Assembly (NCBI RefSeq): GCF_035593345.1
Contig: NZ_CP141606.1
Location: 2,356,001 to 2,420,000 of the forward strand
Direction of reading: 5' to 3'
DNA from: Lelliottia sp. JS-SCA-14
GTDB taxonomy: Bacteria > Pseudomonadota > Gammaproteobacteria > Enterobacterales > Enterobacteriaceae
Length of the DNA stretch: 64,000 bases
This document shows positions 9,914 to 32,378 of this stretch, one piece after another. Position numbers and translations under genes: made by a program. Below the pieces are notes generated by a model. That model searched no databases. It saw only the letters and a program-made list of their open reading frames with translations, and was not told where the DNA came from. Every line of letters starts with the position of its first letter. Positions within the stretch are counted from its first letter, which is position 1.

Positions 9914-10708
9914 ATGACGCTTAACCTTTTTCCCTGCCTGCCCGAGGCAACCCTCGCGGCGGTCAATAAGACCGGTGAGTGGCTGGCGCAGGACGATTAT
10001 CGTCACGGCCAGCCGTTTGATGCTGTGATACTTGCCGGGAACGCGGTGATCCCGGCCATCGACGCCGCCTGCCGGGTCGCGTCTGAGCAGGCGATTCCGC
10101 TGATCATTAGCGGGGGTATCGGCCACTCGACGACTTTTCTGTATGCGGCGACGGCTCGTCACCCGCGCTATAACACCGTTCCGACCACCGGACGCGCAGA
10201 GGCGGCGATTCTTGCCGATATCGCGCGCCAGTTCTGGCACATTCCCGATGAACGGATTTTGATTGAAGACCAGTCCACCAACTGCGGAGAAAATGCGCGG
10301 TTTAGCTGGAACATGCTCAAACATCATGCGCCAGTCCCGGAACGCCTTCTGGTGGTACAAGACCCGACGATGCAGCGTCGTACCATGGCGACCTTTGCGC
10401 GGGTGTGCCGCGACGAGCGCGTGCCGCCACACTTGACCAGCCATCCGGGCATTATTCCGCGTCTGCAAAACAGCGACGACGGTCTGGTGTTCAGCGGTGG
10501 CGGCGAGGGGCTGTGGCCGGTGGAGCGCTATCTGTCGCTGGTGCTCGGCGAACTCCCGCGCCTGCTTGATGATGCCAACGGTTACGGCCCGGCGGGGCGC
10601 GACTTTATCGCTCACGTGGATATTCCGCCTCGCGTCGAAGCCGCCTGGCAGATTTTACGCCATGACACCACGCTCACCGAGGCGCTGGTCAGCCGTTCCC
10701 TTCTGTAA
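9914..10708 (+). CDS. ydcF: YdcF, DUF218 ElyC/SanA-like protein
   Basis: This 264-residue protein has a DUF218 domain: [37 protein letters not shown] in the first half, then [13 protein letters not shown] and [15 protein letters not shown]. The fold is a Rossmann-like domain, and E. coli YdcF has been reported to bind S-adenosylmethionine, but its cellular role is unknown. Length and position next to aldA match E. coli ydcF. A strong AAGGAGGT Shine-Dalgarno sequence sits 5 bp before the ATG at 9914. It is followed at once by a strong terminator, so it is probably a single-gene unit. Confidence 0.92.
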
Positions 10709-10713
10709 CCTTT

Positions 10714-10749
10714 GCCCGTTTGCGCAGCCTGCGTCGCAAACGGGCATTT
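10714..10749 (+). terminator. Intrinsic terminator of ydcF
   Basis: A perfect 11-bp stem, GCCCGTTTGCG (10714-10724) with CGCAAACGGGC (10735-10745), is followed by ATTTTAT. Confidence 0.85.
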
Positions 10750-10795
10750 TATGTTGCTCGTCTGTAATCAAAATGTTTTGCTGACGCGATTCTTT

Positions 10796-10811
10796 TTTGA
10801 GATATCTCACA
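10796..10811. promoter_or_regulatory. CRP-type site upstream of aldA
   Basis: TTTGA-GATATC-TCACA matches the CRP consensus TGTGA-N6-TCACA at 9 of 10 positions, and its centre is a 12-bp palindrome. It lies about 95 bp before aldA, and E. coli aldA is known to be under catabolite control. Binding here is inferred. Confidence 0.65.
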
Positions 10812-10905
10812 AAAACAGCGCGATACCATGAGTCTCCTGAAACCTCACTGTAATTTTTAACAATAATTTCACGTGTTAAAAACAGTGCAACCACAGGAGC
10901 AGGTC

Positions 10906-12345
10906 ATGACAGTACCCGTACAACATCCTATGTATATCGATGGACAGTTTGTTGCCTGGCAAGGTGACGCCTGGATTGATGTCACCAATCCGGCCACCGA
11001 AGAGGTCATTTCCCGTATTCCCGATGGGCGTGCCGAAGACGCCCGCAGAGCGATAGAGGCTGCTGACCGCGCGCAGCCGGGCTGGGAAGCGCTTCCGGCG
11101 ATTGAGCGTGCGAACTGGCTGCGCAAAATCTCCGCCGGGATTCGCGAGCGCGTGAGTGAAATCAGCGCCCTTATTGTCGCCGAGGGCGGCAAAATTCAAC
11201 AGCTGGCGGAAGTGGAAGTCAATTTCACCGCCGATTACATCGACTACATGGCCGAGTGGGCGCGTCGTTACGAAGGCGAGATTATCCAGAGCGATCGTCC
11301 GGGCGAAAATATTCTGGTCTTTAAACGCGCCCTCGGCGTGACGACCGGCATTCTGCCGTGGAACTTCCCGTTCTTCCTGATTGCCCGCAAGCTGGCGCCT
11401 GCGCTGCTGACGGGCAACACCATCGTTATCAAACCGAGCGAATTCACGCCGAACAACGCCATCGCGTTTGCCAAAATCGTCGATGAAATTGGTCTGCCGA
11501 AAGGGGTCTTTAACCTGGTGCTCGGGCGCGGTGAAACCGTCGGCCAGGAGCTGGCGGGCAACCCGAAAGTGGCGATGGTCAGCATGACCGGCAGCGTCAC
11601 CGCCGGTGAGAAGATCATGACCGCCGCGGCGAAAAACATCACCAAAGTGTGTCTGGAGCTGGGCGGCAAAGCGCCTGCGATCGTGATGGACGATGCGAAT
11701 CTGGAGCTGGCGGTGAAAGCGATTGTCGACTCGCGCGTCATTAATACCGGGCAGGTGTGTAACTGCGCCGAGCGCGTGTATGTTCAGAAAGGTATCTACG
11801 ACCGTTTTGTGAACCGTCTGGGTGAGGCGATGAAAGCGGTGCAGTTTGGCAATCCGGCGGAGCGCACAGATATCGCGATGGGCCCGCTGATTAACGCCGC
11901 GGCGCTGGAACGCGTCGAGCAGAAAGTGGCGCGCGCGGTGCAGGAGGGGGCGCGAGTGGCGCTCGGCGGCAAGGCGGTGGAAGGCAAAGGCTACTACTAT
12001 CCGCCGACCCTGCTGCTGGATGTGCGCCAGGAGATGAGCATCATGCACGAAGAGACCTTCGGCCCGGTGCTGCCGGTGGTGGCGTTTGATTCTCTCGAAG
12101 ACGCGCTGGCGATGGCGAACGACAGCGAGTACGGCCTGACCTCTTCGGTGTATACCCAGGATCTGAACGTGGCGATGAAAGCCATCAAAGGGCTGAAATT
12201 CGGCGAGACCTACATCAACCGCGAAAACTTCGAGGCGATGCAGGGCTTCCACGCGGGCTGGCGCAAGTCGGGTATCGGCGGGGCGGACGGGAAACACGGT
12301 CTGCATGAATATCTGCAAACTCAGGTGGTTTATCTCCAGTCGTAA
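10906..12345 (+). CDS. aldA: Lactaldehyde/glycolaldehyde dehydrogenase AldA
   Basis: This NAD-dependent enzyme oxidises L-lactaldehyde to L-lactate and glycolaldehyde to glycolate. It serves fucose, rhamnose and related sugar breakdown in the cytoplasm. The catalytic Cys285 sits in NTGQVCNCAER and the general base Glu251 in LELGGKAP. The NAD-binding PWNFPFFLIARKLAPALLTGN and TGS motifs are present. Starting at the ATG at 10906 gives 479 residues and the known MTVPVQHPMYIDG opening. The upstream in-frame residues lack a ribosome site, whereas AGGAG lies 8 bp before this ATG. A CRP-type site upstream fits carbon regulation. It converges with gapC. Confidence 0.97.
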   Translation: MTVPVQHPMYIDGQFVAWQGDAWIDVTNPATEEVISRIPDGRAEDARRAIEAADRAQPGWEALPAIERANWLRKISAGIRERVSEISALIVAEGGKIQQLAEVEVNFTADYIDYMAEWARRYEGEIIQSDRPGENILVFKRALGVTTGILPWNFPFFLIARKLAPALLTGNTIVIKPSEFTPNNAIAFAKIVDEIGLPKGVFNLVLGRGETVGQELAGNPKVAMVSMTGSVTAGEKIMTAAAKNITKVCLELGGKAPAIVMDDANLELAVKAIVDSRVINTGQVCNCAERVYVQKGIYDRFVNRLGEAMKAVQFGNPAERTDIAMGPLINAAALERVEQKVARAVQEGARVALGGKAVEGKGYYYPPTLLLDVRQEMSIMHEETFGPVLPVVAFDSLEDALAMANDSEYGLTSSVYTQDLNVAMKAIKGLKFGETYINRENFEAMQGFHAGWRKSGIGGADGKHGLHEYLQTQVVYLQS

Positions 12346-12356
12346 TATTGTGATTA

Positions 12357-12377
12357 GCGGGCAGCGAGGCTGCCCGC
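12357..12377. terminator. Hairpin between convergent aldA and gapC
   Basis: A perfect 9-bp stem GCGGGCAGC/GCTGCCCGC surrounds a GAG loop in the 38-bp gap between the convergent genes. Neither side has a good T-run, so it may act on both strands weakly. Confidence 0.5.
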
Positions 12378-12383
12378 AACCAA

Positions 12384-13385
12384 TTAAAGCGCGGCGAACT
12401 TATCCAGCGTGCGCACCAGTTGGGTGACAAAGCCGTACTCGTTGTCATACCAGGCCACGGTTTTCACCAGCTGTACGTCTCCCGCCTCGGACACTTCCGT
12501 CTGCGTGGCGTCAAAGATTGATCCAAAGTGCGAGCCGATCACATCTGAGGAGACGATCTCCTCGTCCGTATAGCCAAAGGATTCATTGCCCTCGGTCGCT
12601 TTTTTCAGCGCGGCGTGGATCTCATCGACGGTCACCTTTTTCTCCAGAATCGACACCAGCTCGGTCACCGATCCGGTTTTCACCGGCACGCGCTGGGCGT
12701 GACCTTTCAGCTTGCCACTGAGCGCCGGGATGACCAGCCCAATCGCTTTCGCCGCCCCGGTGGTATGCGGAATGATATTCTCCGCCGCCGCACGCGAGGC
12801 GCGCAGGTCTTTCCCGCGCGGGCCATCGACCAGCGCCTGGGTGCCAGTGTAGGCATGGATGGTGGTCATGGTGCCGACCTTAATGCCGAAGGCGTCGTGC
12901 AGCACTTTCGCCAGCGGAGCCAGGCAGTTAGTGGTGCAGGATGCCACCGAAATAATGGTGTCGCTGGCGTCAATGGTGTCGTCGTTGACGTTAAAGACGA
13001 TGGTTTTCATCTCGCCAGCGGGCGCGGAGATCAGCACTTTTTTCGCCCCGGCGTCGAGGTGGGCTTTCGATTTCTCCTCCGAGGTATAGAAACCGGTGCA
13101 TTCCACCACCAGATCCACGCCCGCCGAGGTCCATGGAATGTGTTTGGCCTCTTTTTCGGCGTACACGGAGATCGATTTGCCATCGACAATCAGCGAGTCT
13201 TCGGTGAAATCGACGCTCCACGGGAAAGGACCGTAGTTCGAGTCGTGTTTCAGCAGATAGGCCAGCACTTTGGGGGAGGTGAGATCGTTAATCGCCACGA
13301 CGGTGTTGCTGTCCTGAGTTTCAAGCAGACGGCGCAGGACGAGACGCCCGATGCGGCCAAAACCATTAATGCCAATTTTACTCAT
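12384..13385 (-). CDS. gapC: Glyceraldehyde-3-phosphate dehydrogenase GapC
   Basis: This is an NAD-type GAPDH of 333 residues. It has the Rossmann opening [18 protein letters not shown], the active site SCTTNCLAP with Cys150, the catalytic partner His177 in [10 protein letters not shown], and the C-terminal WYDNEYGF. The reaction is glyceraldehyde-3-phosphate to 1,3-bisphosphoglycerate. Asp33 in INDLTS fits NAD preference. In E. coli K-12 the gene at this place is a broken pseudogene, but here it is full length with every motif intact. CAGGAG precedes the ATG at 13385. It is a second GAPDH besides the expected gapA elsewhere, with a role still unclear. Confidence 0.95.
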
Positions 13386-13579
13386 GGTTGACTCCTGTAT
13401 GAACTGAACGATGCGACAGTTTGAAAACTCCTCCAGGCTTAGACCATGACGGCGGGTGAGGCAATTGAAGATGATTCATGCGCGGGCGAAGTTTTTGAAA
13501 AACCATAAAGAAAAGTTAATGAATTTTTAAGTAAAGCCCGTTATGTTGACCCTTTGTTCGACTTTATCCAGGAAATCAT

Positions 13580-14110
13580 ATGCGTAATAAATATACTGGC
13601 CTGCAAATTGGCATTCACTGGCTGGTGTTTCTGCTGGTTATCGTGGCCTACGCGGCGATGGAGTTACGCGGATTTTTCCCGCGCACCGCGCGTCCGGTGA
13701 TCAATATGATTCATGTTTCCTGCGGGATTTCGATCCTGGTGCTGATGGTCGCGCGTCTGCTGGTGCGCCTCAAATTTCCGGCACCGCCGATTCAGCCTAA
13801 GCCAAAACCGATGATCACCGGGATGTCGCATCTGGGGCACCTGGTGGTTTATCTGCTGTTTATTGCGCTGCCGCTCATTGGCCTGGTGATGATGTATAAC
13901 CGCGGCAACCCGTGGCTGGCCTTCGGTCTGGTGATGCCGCACGCCGCAGAAGCGAATTTCGACTTAGTCGACACCCTGAAATCCTGGCACGTGACGCTGG
14001 CAAACATCGGCTATTTCGTTATTGGGATCCACGCCTTTGCGGCGCTGCTGCACCACTATTACTGGAAGGACAATACGCTGCTGCGCATGATGCCGAAAAA
14101 GCGTTCCTGA
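13580..14110 (+). CDS. cybB: Cytochrome b561 CybB
   Basis: This inner membrane di-haem b-type cytochrome has 176 residues, as in E. coli, and four hydrophobic helices. In E. coli it works as a superoxide:ubiquinone oxidoreductase. Histidines expected to bind haem lie in IGIHWLVFLL (His13), NMIHVSCGIS, and the C-terminal helix IGIHAFAALLHHYYW. CAGGAAATCAT precedes the ATG at 13580. It is a single gene followed by a terminator. E. coli has ydcA, hokB and the small RNA rydC next, but none of these is seen here. Confidence 0.95.
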   Translation: MRNKYTGLQIGIHWLVFLLVIVAYAAMELRGFFPRTARPVINMIHVSCGISILVLMVARLLVRLKFPAPPIQPKPKPMITGMSHLGHLVVYLLFIALPLIGLVMMYNRGNPWLAFGLVMPHAAEANFDLVDTLKSWHVTLANIGYFVIGIHAFAALLHHYYWKDNTLLRMMPKKRS

Positions 14111-14120
14111 TAGTCTGCCA

Positions 14121-14146
14121 AACCCGCTTCCGAGAGCGGGTTTTTT
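14121..14146 (+). terminator. Intrinsic terminator of cybB
   Basis: Stem AACCCGCT (14121-14128) pairs with AGCGGGTT (14135-14142), followed by TTTT. It begins 10 bp past the stop. Confidence 0.88.
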
Positions 14147-14346
14147 GTCTGCGTTGCCGTCAAACATCCAGAAACAGATTAAGTGAATAAACATTCGCTC
14201 TTAAGGTGGGCTTTAACCTGATGATTTGCTTTAAGTCTGTTTAATTTCAATGATGAATATATCCATGACAAACACAGGGTGACAGATTATAAATGCACTA
14301 TCCAACGGACAGGGTGTATTCAAATCTGCAGTGCTGTGTGTTTACG

Positions 14347-14388: not shown

Positions 14389-16752
14389 CTATGGCGTAGT
14401 AATTCTATTGATCTCAAATAGACAGAGCGCGTTGACATCCATTTCGACACAGATCTTCCAGCAGGTATTGATATTTTCATCATAGAGATGCAGATCGGGT
14501 GAAGAATGAAGGTCAATAAACTGCATGACTTCACTGTCGCGGCCATAACGGGTTGGCTGGCATTCGAATTGATGAAAGAGCGCGCCGTGCTGTTGGTCAA
14601 AGAGATGCCGTTTAATCTGGTACGTGCCAGGCTCCATCCCAGATATCGTCACGCTGAGCTGTTTGCGAAAGCCCTTCATAAGATGCTCCTGTAGCGACAG
14701 ACAGGGATTAAACGTCACGCTATTTGTCAGCAGCACCCGATACCCCTGACCCTCGCGGGTCACCAGATAGTTTTCCCCCTTTGCCGCGACCGCACCCGTA
14801 AGCCGCTCGCGCAGTCGCAGTACGTGAAACATCGGGCGACGGGTGGGACCGACAAAAAAGAGCGAAAGGCTGCTGGTGTCGATGTGCTTCTCTTCCCGCA
14901 TTTCATGCTGCACCTCTGAATTAATCCAGAAGCCGACACAAGTCACGTGTTCCGTTAGCGAAAGCAGAGTGTTCATTAGCAAGGCTCCGCGAAAAAATGC
15001 ACCATTGGTCTGACGCGTATCGCCTGTCAGTGTGTTCCAGGTTTCCAGGAACAATGGCGTTGTCAGGCCATTCTTGTTGAGCTGTTCGACGATTGTTAAT
15101 GCCTGGCGCTGAACGAAAAATTCGGTGTCCGCCATATCCTCTTTCCCGAATCCTTTACGACGGATCTTGTCGTTGGCGTTGGCCGAAAACCCCAGGAAAT
15201 CGATCTGCTTTGCAAGGTTGCTCGCAAAGAAAGGGATTTCAGCCATCGCTTTTTTCTCATGGGGAAAAGGGTAATAAATGCCGGTTTGCATCCGGGGCAA
15301 AATCGCTTTTAGCGCGTTACGTAGCCGCAGGAACCGGGTTTCGGACTCCTCAGGATAATCCACGTTCGGGTGGTAGCTCAGCGCCCAACTGCTGACATAA
15401 TCCTCACCAAACAGGGTCATGTTGTGCGCGATAAAATCGAGGAATCGAATGGATATCGTGCGCATTTCCTCTTCCGTCGCCTGAAAGTGGAGGCTGATCA
15501 GCAGTGCAACACCCTGCTGTCTGAGAAACGCTACGGCGGTATCGGCGCAAGCGTAGTGTGAAAAAGAGGGCCAGGGTTCATCCGTCAGTAAGTGTGTCGG
15601 CAGGGTTTTCTCAGCAAAGATCTGATCAACCTGGATGTATTTCAGCGGCATTTGCTGGCGGGCGCTGATGATCTGCTGTTGTACCGTGCTTTTGAGCAGC
15701 TCTTCAAGATGGCCCACTTTTGCCATATAGACCGGATGTGGCAGAGGGGCGGTGGTATCTCTTTTTTCGCCCAGGGTGATGGTAACCTTTTCCGTGGTCA
15801 TCTGTTCAATATCGACCATCTGCTCGTGTGTGCTCATACTGCTCGCCAGTAGAGACAGGAGTTCTGCTGGATGTACCTCGCCAAAGCGTGGCGGGCGTGT
15901 CGCTGGCGCTTGTTTGGGCAGGTCATAAATCACGTGAGCCGGTGATTTGCCCGCGCGAGACAACGCGCGGTACTGATGGGGGGTCATGGCATATTTGGAT
16001 TTAAACAGGGCGGTAAAATGGCGCGTATCGCTAAAGCCATTCTCTTCCACAATTTGATAGAGCGGCTTTTGGCTTCTGGACAGTGCCTCAATACAGAACA
16101 TAAAACGCAACTGCGTCAGATACGTTTTAAAGCTGATGCCGACCTCACGTGAGAACAGCCGAGAAAAGTAAGCTTCGGACGTGTGGTTTATTTTAGCCAG
16201 TAAGGAAAGGGATAAGGGTTTGTTGTAATTCTCCTGCAGGTAAATCAACGTATTTTCAATTCGGGATGAGTAGCCCGTTTGTGACTCTTTCTCGGCGTGA
16301 GGTTTTTTCCGCTTAAAATACATGATGAGCAAACTTAATAAACTGGAAAGCAGGGCGTTTATCTCCAGCAGTCCGGTCTCTTTGTGACTTTGTAATTTGC
16401 TGATGGCCAGTTGCGTGATAATTTCGCGTAACATTTTCAGGTGCTGATGGTTATCATCAAATTCGATGCTAAATCTGGCAGCGGCATAGTGGGTGTAGTA
16501 GCGAGAGAAATAGCGATGAGATATCGCGACTCTGACAATAATATTGTCCCCAAGGCTGGTGAGATGGTAATTCTCATATTGATTAATGAGCAACAAATCC
16601 TGCGGATTTAACGTAACCTTTTCGCGCGAAGTTTGCACCGCCACGACGCCTTTCAGCAAATAAAACAGAGTCACGCCGTCATAGCCCCGACTCTCTTCGT
16701 CGAGAATATTTACAATATCCACAGAGTAGTTTTGAAATGTCATTTTCTGCAT
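14389..16752 (-). CDS. AraC-type regulator fused to a GH39-like domain
   Basis: This 787-residue protein has three parts. Residues 1-110 look like an AraC-type cupin (DGVTLFYLLKGVVAVQ). Residues 165-264 are a double helix-turn-helix (SLLAKINHTSEAYFSRLFSREVG, then GFSDTRHFTALFKSKYAMTPHQYR). Residues from about 320 to the end resemble a glycoside hydrolase 39 barrel plus beta domain. The motif that would be WNEPN reads SYHPN after SSWAL, and the nucleophile region reads LETWN rather than TEW. Both catalytic glutamates therefore appear missing or shifted. It likely senses a sugar or glycoside rather than cutting it. GGAAGG precedes Met1 at 16752, and Met4 is an alternative start. It is divergent from an amidohydrolase-MFS pair that it probably controls. 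Confidence 0.85.
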   Translation of the reverse strand: MQKMTFQNYSVDIVNILDEESRGYDGVTLFYLLKGVVAVQTSREKVTLNPQDLLLINQYENYHLTSLGDNIIVRVAISHRYFSRYYTHYAAARFSIEFDDNHQHLKMLREIITQLAISKLQSHKETGLLEINALLSSLLSLLIMYFKRKKPHAEKESQTGYSSRIENTLIYLQENYNKPLSLSLLAKINHTSEAYFSRLFSREVGISFKTYLTQLRFMFCIEALSRSQKPLYQIVEENGFSDTRHFTALFKSKYAMTPHQYRALSRAGKSPAHVIYDLPKQAPATRPPRFGEVHPAELLSLLASSMSTHEQMVDIEQMTTEKVTITLGEKRDTTAPLPHPVYMAKVGHLEELLKSTVQQQIISARQQMPLKYIQVDQIFAEKTLPTHLLTDEPWPSFSHYACADTAVAFLRQQGVALLISLHFQATEEEMRTISIRFLDFIAHNMTLFGEDYVSSWALSYHPNVDYPEESETRFLRLRNALKAILPRMQTGIYYPFPHEKKAMAEIPFFASNLAKQIDFLGFSANANDKIRRKGFGKEDMADTEFFVQRQALTIVEQLNKNGLTTPLFLETWNTLTGDTRQTNGAFFRGALLMNTLLSLTEHVTCVGFWINSEVQHEMREEKHIDTSSLSLFFVGPTRRPMFHVLRLRERLTGAVAAKGENYLVTREGQGYRVLLTNSVTFNPCLSLQEHLMKGFRKQLSVTISGMEPGTYQIKRHLFDQQHGALFHQFECQPTRYGRDSEVMQFIDLHSSPDLHLYDENINTCWKICVEMDVNALCLFEINRITTP

Positions 16753-16950
16753 GCTGAACCTTCCGATGTGTATTTTTCTGAACGCCGAAAACAGACGTCA
16801 AAAATGAGTGCATCATTTTTTAACGTGGCCGACTGGTGAGCCCGAAAGTGCGCAAATTTTGCTATCTATTGGGAAAGTAATCTCCTGTTTCGGTTTTTGG
16901 CTCGCTTTATAATACGGATATTAACCACACAGACATGAAGGAAAAATGCG

Positions 16951-18120
16951 ATGACTGACATGATGAAAACCCTCGTAGAAAGCCAGGCAAGATATATCGC
17001 GTTAAGACATCAATTACATAGCCATCCCGAAATCGGTCTGGAGGAGTATCACACCAGCGATCTGGTTGCAGAGAAATTGAGCTCCTGGGGCTATAAGGTG
17101 AATCGAGGACTTGCCCAGACCGGCGTGGTAGGGAGTCTGACGGTCGGAGACGGAAAAAAAGTGCTGGGATTGCGGGCTGATATGGACGCGTTGCCGATGC
17201 AGGAGCAGAGCGGTAAAGCCTGGGCCAGCAGTGAGGCAGGGAAATTTCATGGCTGCGGGCACGACGGACACACCACGATCCTGCTTTGTGCCGCAGAATA
17301 TCTGGCCAAAACCCGCAATTTTAACGGCACCCTTAATCTGATTTTCCAGCCAGGTGAAGAGTTGCTTTATGGCGGACGAGTCATGCTGGACGACGGTCTG
17401 TTTGCAACATTTCCCTGTGATGCCATTTTCGCGCTGCATAATATGCCTGGCCTGAAGAAAGGCACTTTCCATTTCAAAAAAGGGCCGATGATGGCCTCTT
17501 CAGACACCATCGTCATTGACGTCAACGGCGTGGGCGGCCACGGTGCGTATCCTGAAAAGACCATTGATGCAGGGATGATTGCGTGTTACATCGCCGTGGC
17601 TTTGCAGACGATCGTCTCGCGTAATGTGGTGCCTTTCCAGCCCGCAGTGGTCACTGTTGGCAGTATCCAGTCAGGGCTTGCGCCGAATATTATCAATGAA
17701 CATGCCCGGCTTCAGCTGAGCGTGCGCGCGCTAAATGCGGATGTTCGCCGCTTGATGGTGGAAAGGATCACCGAAATTGCACAAGGACAGGCGAAGAGCT
17801 TTGGTGCGACGGTCAAAGTCGACCATGTCAATGGCTGCCCGGAGTTGGTCAATGGCCGCGAGGCGACCGATTTTGCCATTAGCGTGGCGAAAGAATTAAT
17901 GGACCCGTCGATGATCTGCGAGGATACCCACGCGATGATGGGAAGCGAAGACTTCGCCTTTATGCTCGAACGAAACCCCAACGGCAGCTATTTGATGATC
18001 GGTGCTGGCGATGAACCGGATCTCTGCCCGGTACACCACCCTGGGTTTGATTTTAATGACGAACTCATCATTCCTGGCGCTCGCTATTGGTGCACGTTAG
18101 CCGAGAAGTTCCTCAAGTAA
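16951..18120 (+). CDS. M20 amidohydrolase (hippurate/N-acyl-amino-acid hydrolase-like)
   Basis: This 389-residue cytoplasmic metallohydrolase belongs to the M20D group, which releases amino acids from N-acyl, benzoyl or indoleacetyl conjugates. Metal and active-site motifs are LRADMDALPMQE, HGCGHDGHT, the catalytic QPGEE, ALHNMPG and GSEDFAFM. The lid domain motif GGHGAYPEKTIDA is also present. GAAGGAA precedes the ATG at 16951. It is 29 bp upstream of an MFS transporter gene and divergent from the AraC-GH39 regulator. It is thus probably part of a regulated uptake-and-hydrolysis unit. The exact substrate cannot be told from sequence. Codon use is visibly more AT-rich than the flanking backbone genes. 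Confidence 0.9.
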   Translation: MTDMMKTLVESQARYIALRHQLHSHPEIGLEEYHTSDLVAEKLSSWGYKVNRGLAQTGVVGSLTVGDGKKVLGLRADMDALPMQEQSGKAWASSEAGKFHGCGHDGHTTILLCAAEYLAKTRNFNGTLNLIFQPGEELLYGGRVMLDDGLFATFPCDAIFALHNMPGLKKGTFHFKKGPMMASSDTIVIDVNGVGGHGAYPEKTIDAGMIACYIAVALQTIVSRNVVPFQPAVVTVGSIQSGLAPNIINEHARLQLSVRALNADVRRLMVERITEIAQGQAKSFGATVKVDHVNGCPELVNGREATDFAISVAKELMDPSMICEDTHAMMGSEDFAFMLERNPNGSYLMIGAGDEPDLCPVHHPGFDFNDELIIPGARYWCTLAEKFLK

Positions 18121-18149
18121 CCCCCATCCATCTATGGCGAGATATGATT

Positions 18150-19547
18150 ATGTCTTCAATAGGATACAACGTCACTCAGGTACAATTTAAAGGGAATGAT
18201 CGCCTGACACTGGGTATTGTGTTAGGTGTATTAACGTTCTGGCTATTTGCTCAATCTATGATGAATATTGCCCCTGCTATTCAACAGGACATTAATATTC
18301 CGTCAGCCTCATTAAATCTGGCCATCAGTCTGACTTCACTCTTATCGGGCTGTTTTATTGTGGTGGCCGGTGCTGTCGCAGATAAAATTGGCCGGGTCAA
18401 AATGACTTATATTGGGTTTGTTTTAAGTATTGTGGGCTGTTTGCTTATTATTTTCGCCAGCAACACGGTGATTTTTGCCGCTGGAAGAGTGGTTCAGGGG
18501 CTTTCCGGAGCCTGTATTATGCCCGCCACGCTGGCGTTGATGAAGACCTATTATGAGGGAAAGGCGCGTCAGCGAGCATTGAGCTTCTGGTCTATTGGTT
18601 CGTGGGGCGGTTCGGGCATCTGCTCACTGTTTGGCGGGGCGGTTGCGACATCGATGGGCTGGAAATGGATATTTATTTTTTCGATTATTTGCGCCTTAGT
18701 GGGGATGTTGTTAATTCACGGTACGCCAGAAAGTAAAGTTGTCGAGAAGGGGAGACATCGCTTCGACTATTTAGGCCTGTGCGCATTTGTGGTAATGCTC
18801 ATCTCTCTTAACCTGATCATTACTAAAGGCAGTACTCTGGGCTGGAAAAGTCAGCCGATGCTGATCTTGTTTGCCGTATTTGTGGTGTCAGCGATTGTAT
18901 TTGGCAAAGAGAGTTATTTTAAAAGGCAGAACGGGTTTATCGATTTGTCTTTGTTTAAAAATAAACCTTATGCGGCGGCAACGTTTTCTAACTTTATGCT
19001 TAACGCAGCGGCGGGAACGCTATTGGTGGCGAGTTTGTACGTTCAGCAAATTCGGGGATTTACGGCTTTTCAGTCCGGTATGCTGACCATTGGTTATTTG
19101 ATTGCGGTACTGGCGATGATCAGAGTGGGAGAAAAATTGCTGCAAAAAATCGGTGCCAAAAAACCTATGCTGTTAGGGAGTTTTATGACGGGAATTGGCA
19201 TTGCTTTAATGGCGCTCACCTATTTATCAAACACAGCGTACGTCGTAGCTGTGCTGCTGGGCTACATCCTGTTTGGTCTGGGCCTCGGATTTTATGCCAC
19301 GCCCTCCACGGACACTGCTATTTCTAATGCGCCAGCGGATAAAGTCGGCATTGCCTCCGGGATATACAAAATGGCCAGCTCTCTGGGCGGCGCATTCGGA
19401 GTGGCTATTTCTGCTTCTGTCTATACGGCGCTGCTCTCCTCTGGTGGCGCGACGGCAGCGACAATCGGCCTGCTGGTCAACGTGTTGTTTTGCCTGCTGT
19501 CGTTTATCGCGGTCCTCATTATGGTACCGAGGAATGCCGGGAAGTAG
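18150..19547 (+). CDS. MFS transporter, DHA2/QacA-like
   Basis: The protein has about 465 residues and roughly 14 hydrophobic segments. MFS motif A is AGAVADKIGRVKM, and motif C-like residues lie in RVVQGLSGACIMPATLALM. WSIGSWGGSGICSLFGGAVATSMGWKWIF follows the DHA2 pattern. The start at 18150 was chosen because GGCGAG lies about 8 bp before it. An ATG at 18144 is too close to that site, and the reading frame running back into the amidohydrolase gene has no ribosome site. It is cotranscribed with the M20 amidohydrolase. Such pairs often move the substrate or the product of the hydrolase. The gene is AT-richer than its surroundings, which suggests transfer. Confidence 0.85.
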   Translation: MSSIGYNVTQVQFKGNDRLTLGIVLGVLTFWLFAQSMMNIAPAIQQDINIPSASLNLAISLTSLLSGCFIVVAGAVADKIGRVKMTYIGFVLSIVGCLLIIFASNTVIFAAGRVVQGLSGACIMPATLALMKTYYEGKARQRALSFWSIGSWGGSGICSLFGGAVATSMGWKWIFIFSIICALVGMLLIHGTPESKVVEKGRHRFDYLGLCAFVVMLISLNLIITKGSTLGWKSQPMLILFAVFVVSAIVFGKESYFKRQNGFIDLSLFKNKPYAAATFSNFMLNAAAGTLLVASLYVQQIRGFTAFQSGMLTIGYLIAVLAMIRVGEKLLQKIGAKKPMLLGSFMTGIGIALMALTYLSNTAYVVAVLLGYILFGLGLGFYATPSTDTAISNAPADKVGIASGIYKMASSLGGAFGVAISASVYTALLSSGGATAATIGLLVNVLFCLLSFIAVLIMVPRNAGK

Positions 19548-31940: not shown

Positions 31941-32378
31941 TTTTTCATTCCTTAGAAAGGTTTTTATTATGATTTGAGATGAACTTTTGCCCATAACAAG
32001 AATCGGAGGAATCGTAATATTGTTTCGAATGCGGCGGCAATTAATATGAATCGGTAAAATGTTAATATTTACGTCAAAAGTTACGCATTGAAACCTTAAT
32101 TATATTGAGTGATATATTTCGTTTATTTATTCATGGCGTTTATTTGTTTTTAATTAACAGTGGTGAATATTTGTTCTTGTTTTTATATTTCAGGGGACGT
32201 CATTTGATATTTGTGATCGCTGATTGAGTTTTTAAGCAAAAAATCAAAGTGTCTCTTTTACCCTCAAAAACGTACAAGTTATGCATTTTCGTCATGGCTA
32301 CTATGACAACAATTCGGTTGTCCCCGCGGTGTCCTTCTTGTTGAATAGTTATGCAATATCCACGCAAAAGGATTGATG
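31941..32378. other. AT-rich divergent control region, porin/aminotransferase
   Basis: This 438-bp gap without a gene is strongly AT-rich, especially 32030-32200, as is common upstream of porins controlled by OmpR and H-NS. I looked for a MicC- or MicF-like antisense RNA and found no match. A TTGTTGAA-type -35 near 32339 could serve the aminotransferase. No operator can be assigned with confidence. Confidence 0.5.

Follow-up and report, generated by a model that had tools for sequence, protein, structure and literature searches.

The locus and its regulator

The window, by which we mean the whole 64,000-nucleotide stretch of DNA that was analyzed, contains a three-gene block (14389–19547) that sits between cybB and an alcohol-dehydrogenase-like gene. 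The block comprises a regulator gene and, divergent from it, genes for an M20D amidohydrolase and a NorC-like transporter (Table 1). The transporter start, ATG 18150, was our choice; the open reading frame is listed from TTG 18087. Six related genomes were observed to keep gap-cybB, with no module gene following within the stretch fetched.

Table 1. Features of the regulator–amidohydrolase–transporter block in the window.
Feature	Position	Strand	Basis
AryK-type regulator, 787 aa	14389..16752	-	ORF call; Pfam; NF047455; tree
AraC DNA-binding part, residues 164-266	15955..16263	-	HTH_18 185-263, HTH_AraC 172-213; PDB AraC-type matches 160-270
GH39-fold barrel without catalytic glutamates, residues 320-787	14392..15795	-	
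SYHPN, residues 459-463, region of lost acid/base Glu	15364..15378	-	
Thr571, place of nucleophile Glu (E277 of 1px8)	15040..15042	-	Alignment; family columns
WNTLTGDTRQTNGAFFRGAL, residues 572-591, loop after lost nucleophile	14980..15039	-	Conservation; secondary structure
Candidate operator, imperfect palindrome ACGTCAAAAATGAGTGCATCATTTTTTAACGT	16795..16826	.	
Second block AAAGTGCGCAAAnTTTGCT..CTATTGGGAAAGTAA, between palindrome and TATAAT	16845..16880	.	Kept only between window and Rahnella L003
TATAAT, possible -10 of amidohydrolase operon	16908..16913	+	By eye
M20D amidohydrolase, 389 aa, divergent from regulator	16951..18120	+	TIGR01891 over cut-off; nearest solved 1ysj (YxeP), 4ewt
NorC-like DHA2 transporter	18150..19547	+	7d5p, E 1.5e-164

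The regulator is made up, in order, of a cupin-like part, an AraC HTH and a GH39-fold barrel. The AraC-type double HTH is clear (HTH_18 at 65.4 bits against a Pfam cut-off of 33.6), and the cupin-like part is seen as sub-threshold Pfam matches at residues 24–139 and as strands at residues 9–78 of the structure model. The C-terminal domain has the barrel fold of the GH39 beta-xylosidases 1px8 and 2bs9 over its whole length, which bears out the preliminary description of an AraC regulator fused to a GH39-like domain. The GH39 profile search suggested in that description gave no PF01229 match over cut-off for the window regulator; PF01229 matches 16 of 32 of its relatives at E ≤ 0.01.

The model for AryK, the staphylococcal AraC/XylS regulator (NF047455, PMC3922988), aligns with the window regulator at residues 7–783 with the same domain order over the full length. 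The score of 349.3 bits does not reach the curated AryK equivalog cut-off of 850 bits, and identity to AryK is 21–24%; the two proteins fall in the same clade (100/100). The regulator's architecture therefore belongs to an already known regulator type, defined by the AryK domain order, and an AraC-like domain on some GH39 xylosidases is already in print (PMC8543862). The earlier interpretation, in which an enzyme fold has become the sensor of a transcription factor, is supported in part, for its GH39 fold, AraC fusion and lost glutamates; the ligand-sensing role is putative, and the architecture is not new. The features that set this regulator apart and make it worth testing are the dead-enzyme nature of the barrel, the conserved module and the common cis element.

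Catalytic residues and the conserved loop

In 1px8 we take E160 to be the acid/base and E277 the nucleophile. E277 aligns to the residue preceding the invariant Trp572, which is Thr571 in the window regulator and Asn or Lys in AryK. E160 aligns to His461, Pro462 or Asn463, depending on the placement of a short gap, so that its exact partner is uncertain by two residues; neither Glu nor Asp occurs at residues 460–464. The His228 equivalent is also absent in the alignment. The window regulator thereby differs from the GH39 beta-xylosidases and from four intact AraC-GH39 fusions (L157–L160) in having lost both glutamates and His228. The original reading of the sequence was a good one, and its observation that both catalytic glutamates are gone is confirmed by the alignment to 1px8 and by the family columns. 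The nucleophile column of a 160-row alignment reads S in 102 rows, T in 28, N in 20, A in 5, E in 3 (L005, L026 and P0055) and R in 2. P0055, which lies outside the AryK-type family in the tree, was dropped, leaving the nucleophile Glu in 2 of 159 family rows; 51 other rows lack it but retain Glu at position W+6 or W+7.

Residues 572–591, which come after the strand that bore the nucleophile, are the best-conserved 20 residues of the whole protein. When the 159 rows were reduced to 69 non-redundant ones, their mean conservation was 0.89 and that of the best HTH stretch 0.64; many of these loci had been fetched by patterns drawn from this same loop. In 38 rows obtained by other routes (25 non-redundant), 6 of which came via genomes of pattern-fetched loci, the loop again ranked first, at 0.81 compared with 0.64. 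Without those 6 (32 rows, 21 non-redundant), residues 569–588 were first at 0.81 and residues 572–591 second at 0.80, with the HTH at 0.64. The window regulator has a WNTLTG-TNG-FFRG loop in place of the GH39 enzyme loop, and residues 577–585 have a model confidence below 50.

Stronger constraint on this loop than on the DNA-binding part would be expected of a ligand pocket, and would also fit a contact surface. The barrel could accordingly be a structural, oligomerisation or protein-contact module, with the ligand sensed by the N-terminal cupin-like part as in AraC. Both the presence of a cupin-like part, as judged from the Pfam matches and model strands given above, and the low model confidence of a loop that would suit protein contact speak for this arrangement. 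The top conservation, however, lies at the end of the old catalytic strand and not in the cupin, and we consider a purely structural barrel unlikely.

Linkage to an amidohydrolase and a transporter

The neighborhood is the best clue to the function of the regulator. Among the best 80 of 131 genome loci, with flanks of up to 8 kb, both partners were found at 66 and at least one partner at 75, compared with 1, 4, 3 and 5 of the 80 loci for four other window genes used as controls. Neither partner was found at 5 of these 80 loci, including L023, which has full flanks; the 14 loci that lack the complete pair include L007, L016 and L040, in which the sequence ends nearby. In the same 80 loci the genes are divergent in 18, on the same strand with the transporter first in 35, and with the amidohydrolase first in 13. 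At L008 (Listeria newyorkensis), positions 10372–14198 lack a NorC-like gene; the regulator is followed there by an MFS gene of another kind and two genes for M20 amidohydrolases.

The window has the linkage of the AryK-type clade, an M20D amidohydrolase with a NorC-like transporter, and its neighbors are those of AryK (an M20 peptidase and a NorC-like transporter), although the window module is divergent and the AryK module is on the same strand. In Bacilli, the class of genome G101, NF047455 has matches at E ≤ 1e-60 in 18 of 398 genomes, 11 of them above the AryK cut-off. Neighborhoods were available for 17 of these 18, and both partners were present in 15, the amidohydrolase only in 1, and neither in 1 (L133, at a contig end); for the matches above the AryK cut-off, both partners were present in 11 of 11. 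The best solved matches of the transporter and amidohydrolase at L118 and L120 are NorC (7d5p) and 4ewt. The window transporter is likewise a close homologue of NorC, the protein described under 7D5P in PMC8257674. In the available text of that paper an amidohydrolase is reported to adjoin most NorC relatives and the natural substrate of NorC is given as unknown, and the same text has zero counts of the term "AraC" and mentions no AraC regulator or operator. In the available text of the AryK paper (PMC3922988) the count of "norC" is also zero.

The regulator is rare in the order, with 6 of 394 genomes having it, the window genome included. The G+C contents of the regulator, amidohydrolase and transporter genes are 49.5, 53.2 and 47.5%, compared with 55–62% for seven flanking genes. 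Because of this rarity and lower G+C, horizontal transfer of the three-gene block is likely. Among 99 relatives of the window genome, itself included, 16 have the regulator and the same 16 have the NorC-like gene (each at E ≤ 1e-60), although these genomes are related and do not represent 16 independent events. One locus, L053, comes from a record with Chryseobacterium in its title, yet its module resembles those of enterobacteria: the amidohydrolase is 61% identical to that of the window, and the regulator and intergenic DNA resemble Enterobacter loci. Contamination of that assembly is possible.

A candidate operator in the intergenic region

The imperfect palindrome between the divergent genes lies 42 bases from the regulator start codon and 124 from that of the amidohydrolase, and palindromes of the same type are found at AryK loci. 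The usual AraC sites are direct half-sites, not inverted repeats. The palindrome was first spotted by eye in divergent intergenic regions of these same loci, and a hand-made half-site score was clear in most divergent loci and mostly not significant in Firmicutes. Two separate de novo searches, one of 45 non-redundant Firmicutes regions between the regulator and target operon and the other of 16 non-redundant divergent regions plus the window, returned 30-bp motifs that are almost identical (AgGtaAAAAATcAACCGTnntTTTTTtaCc and gacAAAAAATaAcggGcTgTTTTTTGTCAT).

Each matrix was cross-tested on both strands of whole loci of 8–20 kb, in which the target region averages 1.3 and 2.0% of the locus. 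The 26-bp Firmicutes matrix had its best match in the module intergenic region in 14 of 17 loci, the window included (12 of 17 with the 30-bp matrix), and the divergent-trained matrix placed it first in 25 of 43 Firmicutes loci (30-bp: 24 of 43). Sixty column-permuted controls reached at most 7 (30-bp: 8) of the 17 and 4 (30-bp: 6) of the 43, and 60 block-permuted controls at most 12 (30-bp: 10) and 18 (30-bp: 19), respectively. The element was not first in 3 of the 17 and 18 of the 43 loci; the misses include Listeria L014 and L027 and Rahnella L003 (rank 62; 30-bp: 42), the closest relative outside the genus. Twelve staphylococcal-type loci lay outside both training sets; two of them, L120 and L122, share the same coordinates and could be near-copies of each other. 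In 8 of the 12 the second matrix gave the regulator-target gap its top rank, and in 10 it ranked the gap first or second; the first matrix did worse. At L125, the element reads TAATGACAAAAATTAATCATTAATTTTTGTCATTA.

The second block is a possible further contact of the regulator; it emerged from a comparison among three sequences, of which one is nearly identical to the window. The TATAAT has no good -35, and the promoter scan did not call it. On the minus strand a promoter-like match, TTGACG at 16801, overlaps the palindrome (2 such matches against 0.7 expected), which hints weakly at autoregulation.

These data also bear on whether the regulator is dedicated to the adjoining operon at all, as the linkage could stem from joint transfer on an island. 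The patchy distribution in the order and the lower G+C of the three genes would agree with such an origin, as would the many genes affected by AryK, which is described in S. aureus as activating toxin expression and strongly affecting central metabolism (PMC3922988). However, the linkage survives the changes in gene order and orientation noted above, and the element stays with the upstream region of the target operon across those changed arrangements. When up to two mismatches are allowed, its pattern matches the window genome at 4 sites, including the module. We regard linkage by joint transfer alone as improbable.

Family tree and intact fusions

Of 299 genomes from the phylum of G101, 22 gave PF01229 matches at E ≤ 1e-10. 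Four of the matching proteins, L157–L160, are fusions of AraC and GH39 that have both catalytic Glu residues, and they align almost end to end with the family profile (E 2.5e-73 to 1.4e-96). P0055 and L161 are fused proteins outside the AryK-type family in which only the nucleophile Glu is retained. In a 53-row tree the AryK-type family (40 rows: the window, staphylococcal AryK, Listeria, Bacillaceae and others, Proteobacteria) forms one side of a branch with 100/100 support, and the intact fusions and free GH39 enzymes are on the other. The tree has hand-chosen representatives and a midpoint root, so that its deep root is not fixed; the branch of L161 is long, and 21 rows deviate in composition. 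The simplest history would be one in which the fusion preceded the loss of catalysis. The proteins also form a series that runs from AraC-GH39 fusions retaining both glutamates to a transcription factor that has neither. Proteins named beta-xylosidase for this domain (as in the source names of P0014 and P0050) are probably regulators.

Some family members have Glu in catalytic positions. L005 has Glu at the nucleophile place and at W+7, the acid/base place if there is no gap, and L134 reads like L005 at both places; judging by these residues, both may be active, with active sites retained or regained. L114 and L115 likewise have Glu at the nucleophile place. In all of these and in L026 the WNTLTG signature is kept as in the dead members. 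In a fosmid study, weak activity on pNP-xyloside (xylosidase activity) was surmised to come from an AraC/GH39 gene related to Klebsiella (PMC4730625). The catalytic places of the Klebsiella family members in our set have WHWSP and LLSWN, so we would expect no xylosidase activity from them. That the barrel of the window regulator is a still active glycosidase using other residues, in a bifunctional enzyme-regulator, would be in keeping with the intact fusions, with L005 and with the surmised Klebsiella-related activity, but is highly improbable given that the acid/base, nucleophile and His228 equivalents are all missing and in view of the motifs of the Klebsiella members.

Two observations concern individual family members. 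The regulator frame of L064 (Aquibacillus; ORF end 9809) ends after 626 aa though the match goes on, and L064 was kept out of the protein alignments. Genome G100, that of L014, has two more, weaker matches to the AryK model, one of them in an 881-residue frame.

Proposed working of the module

Computation supports the GH39 fold, the loss of both glutamates, the AryK clade, the dedicated linkage and the shared cis element, and from these we propose, with a probability of roughly 0.66, an AryK-type regulator whose dead GH39 barrel has kept its pocket-side loop for binding, dedicated to the divergent amidohydrolase/transporter operon through the candidate palindrome and a small metabolite. The barrel, having lost both glutamates, would bind instead of cut. 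The regulator would sit on the palindrome at the shared promoter region, and a pathway metabolite in the barrel, presumably the substrate or product of the M20D enzyme and NorC-like transporter, would alter transcription of the operon and of the regulator's own gene, in whichever direction. Because of the M20D partner, we guess that the metabolite is an N-acyl amino acid or a related amide conjugate.

Several points count against this explanation. An inverted repeat is atypical for AraC proteins, the palindrome was discovered by eye before any search, loci were missed in the cross-tests, and the cupin is a possible sensor. L023 is without partners despite full flanks, and L005 and L134 have Glu at both catalytic places or nearly so. 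From what is reported of central metabolism and toxin genes in PMC3922988, the AryK regulon may also be wider than the neighboring operon.

A broader and more tentative reading, to which we give slightly less than even odds, is that NorC-type transporters have their natural substrate sensed by the dead barrel of AryK-clade regulators, and that a single module of regulator, enzyme and exporter, with a single operator sequence, has been kept across Firmicutes and Proteobacteria. If true, the inducer would reveal what NorC and its M20D partner act on. A dedicated regulator, a conserved pocket-side loop and a candidate operator lend themselves to a reporter screen, in which barrel-dependent inducers would be candidate substrates. 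Elsewhere in the 64-kb window, the element match at 32234–32263, flanked by a porin-like ORF and an aminotransferase-like ORF, ranks second with two of three matrices and ties for first with the 30-bp matrix.
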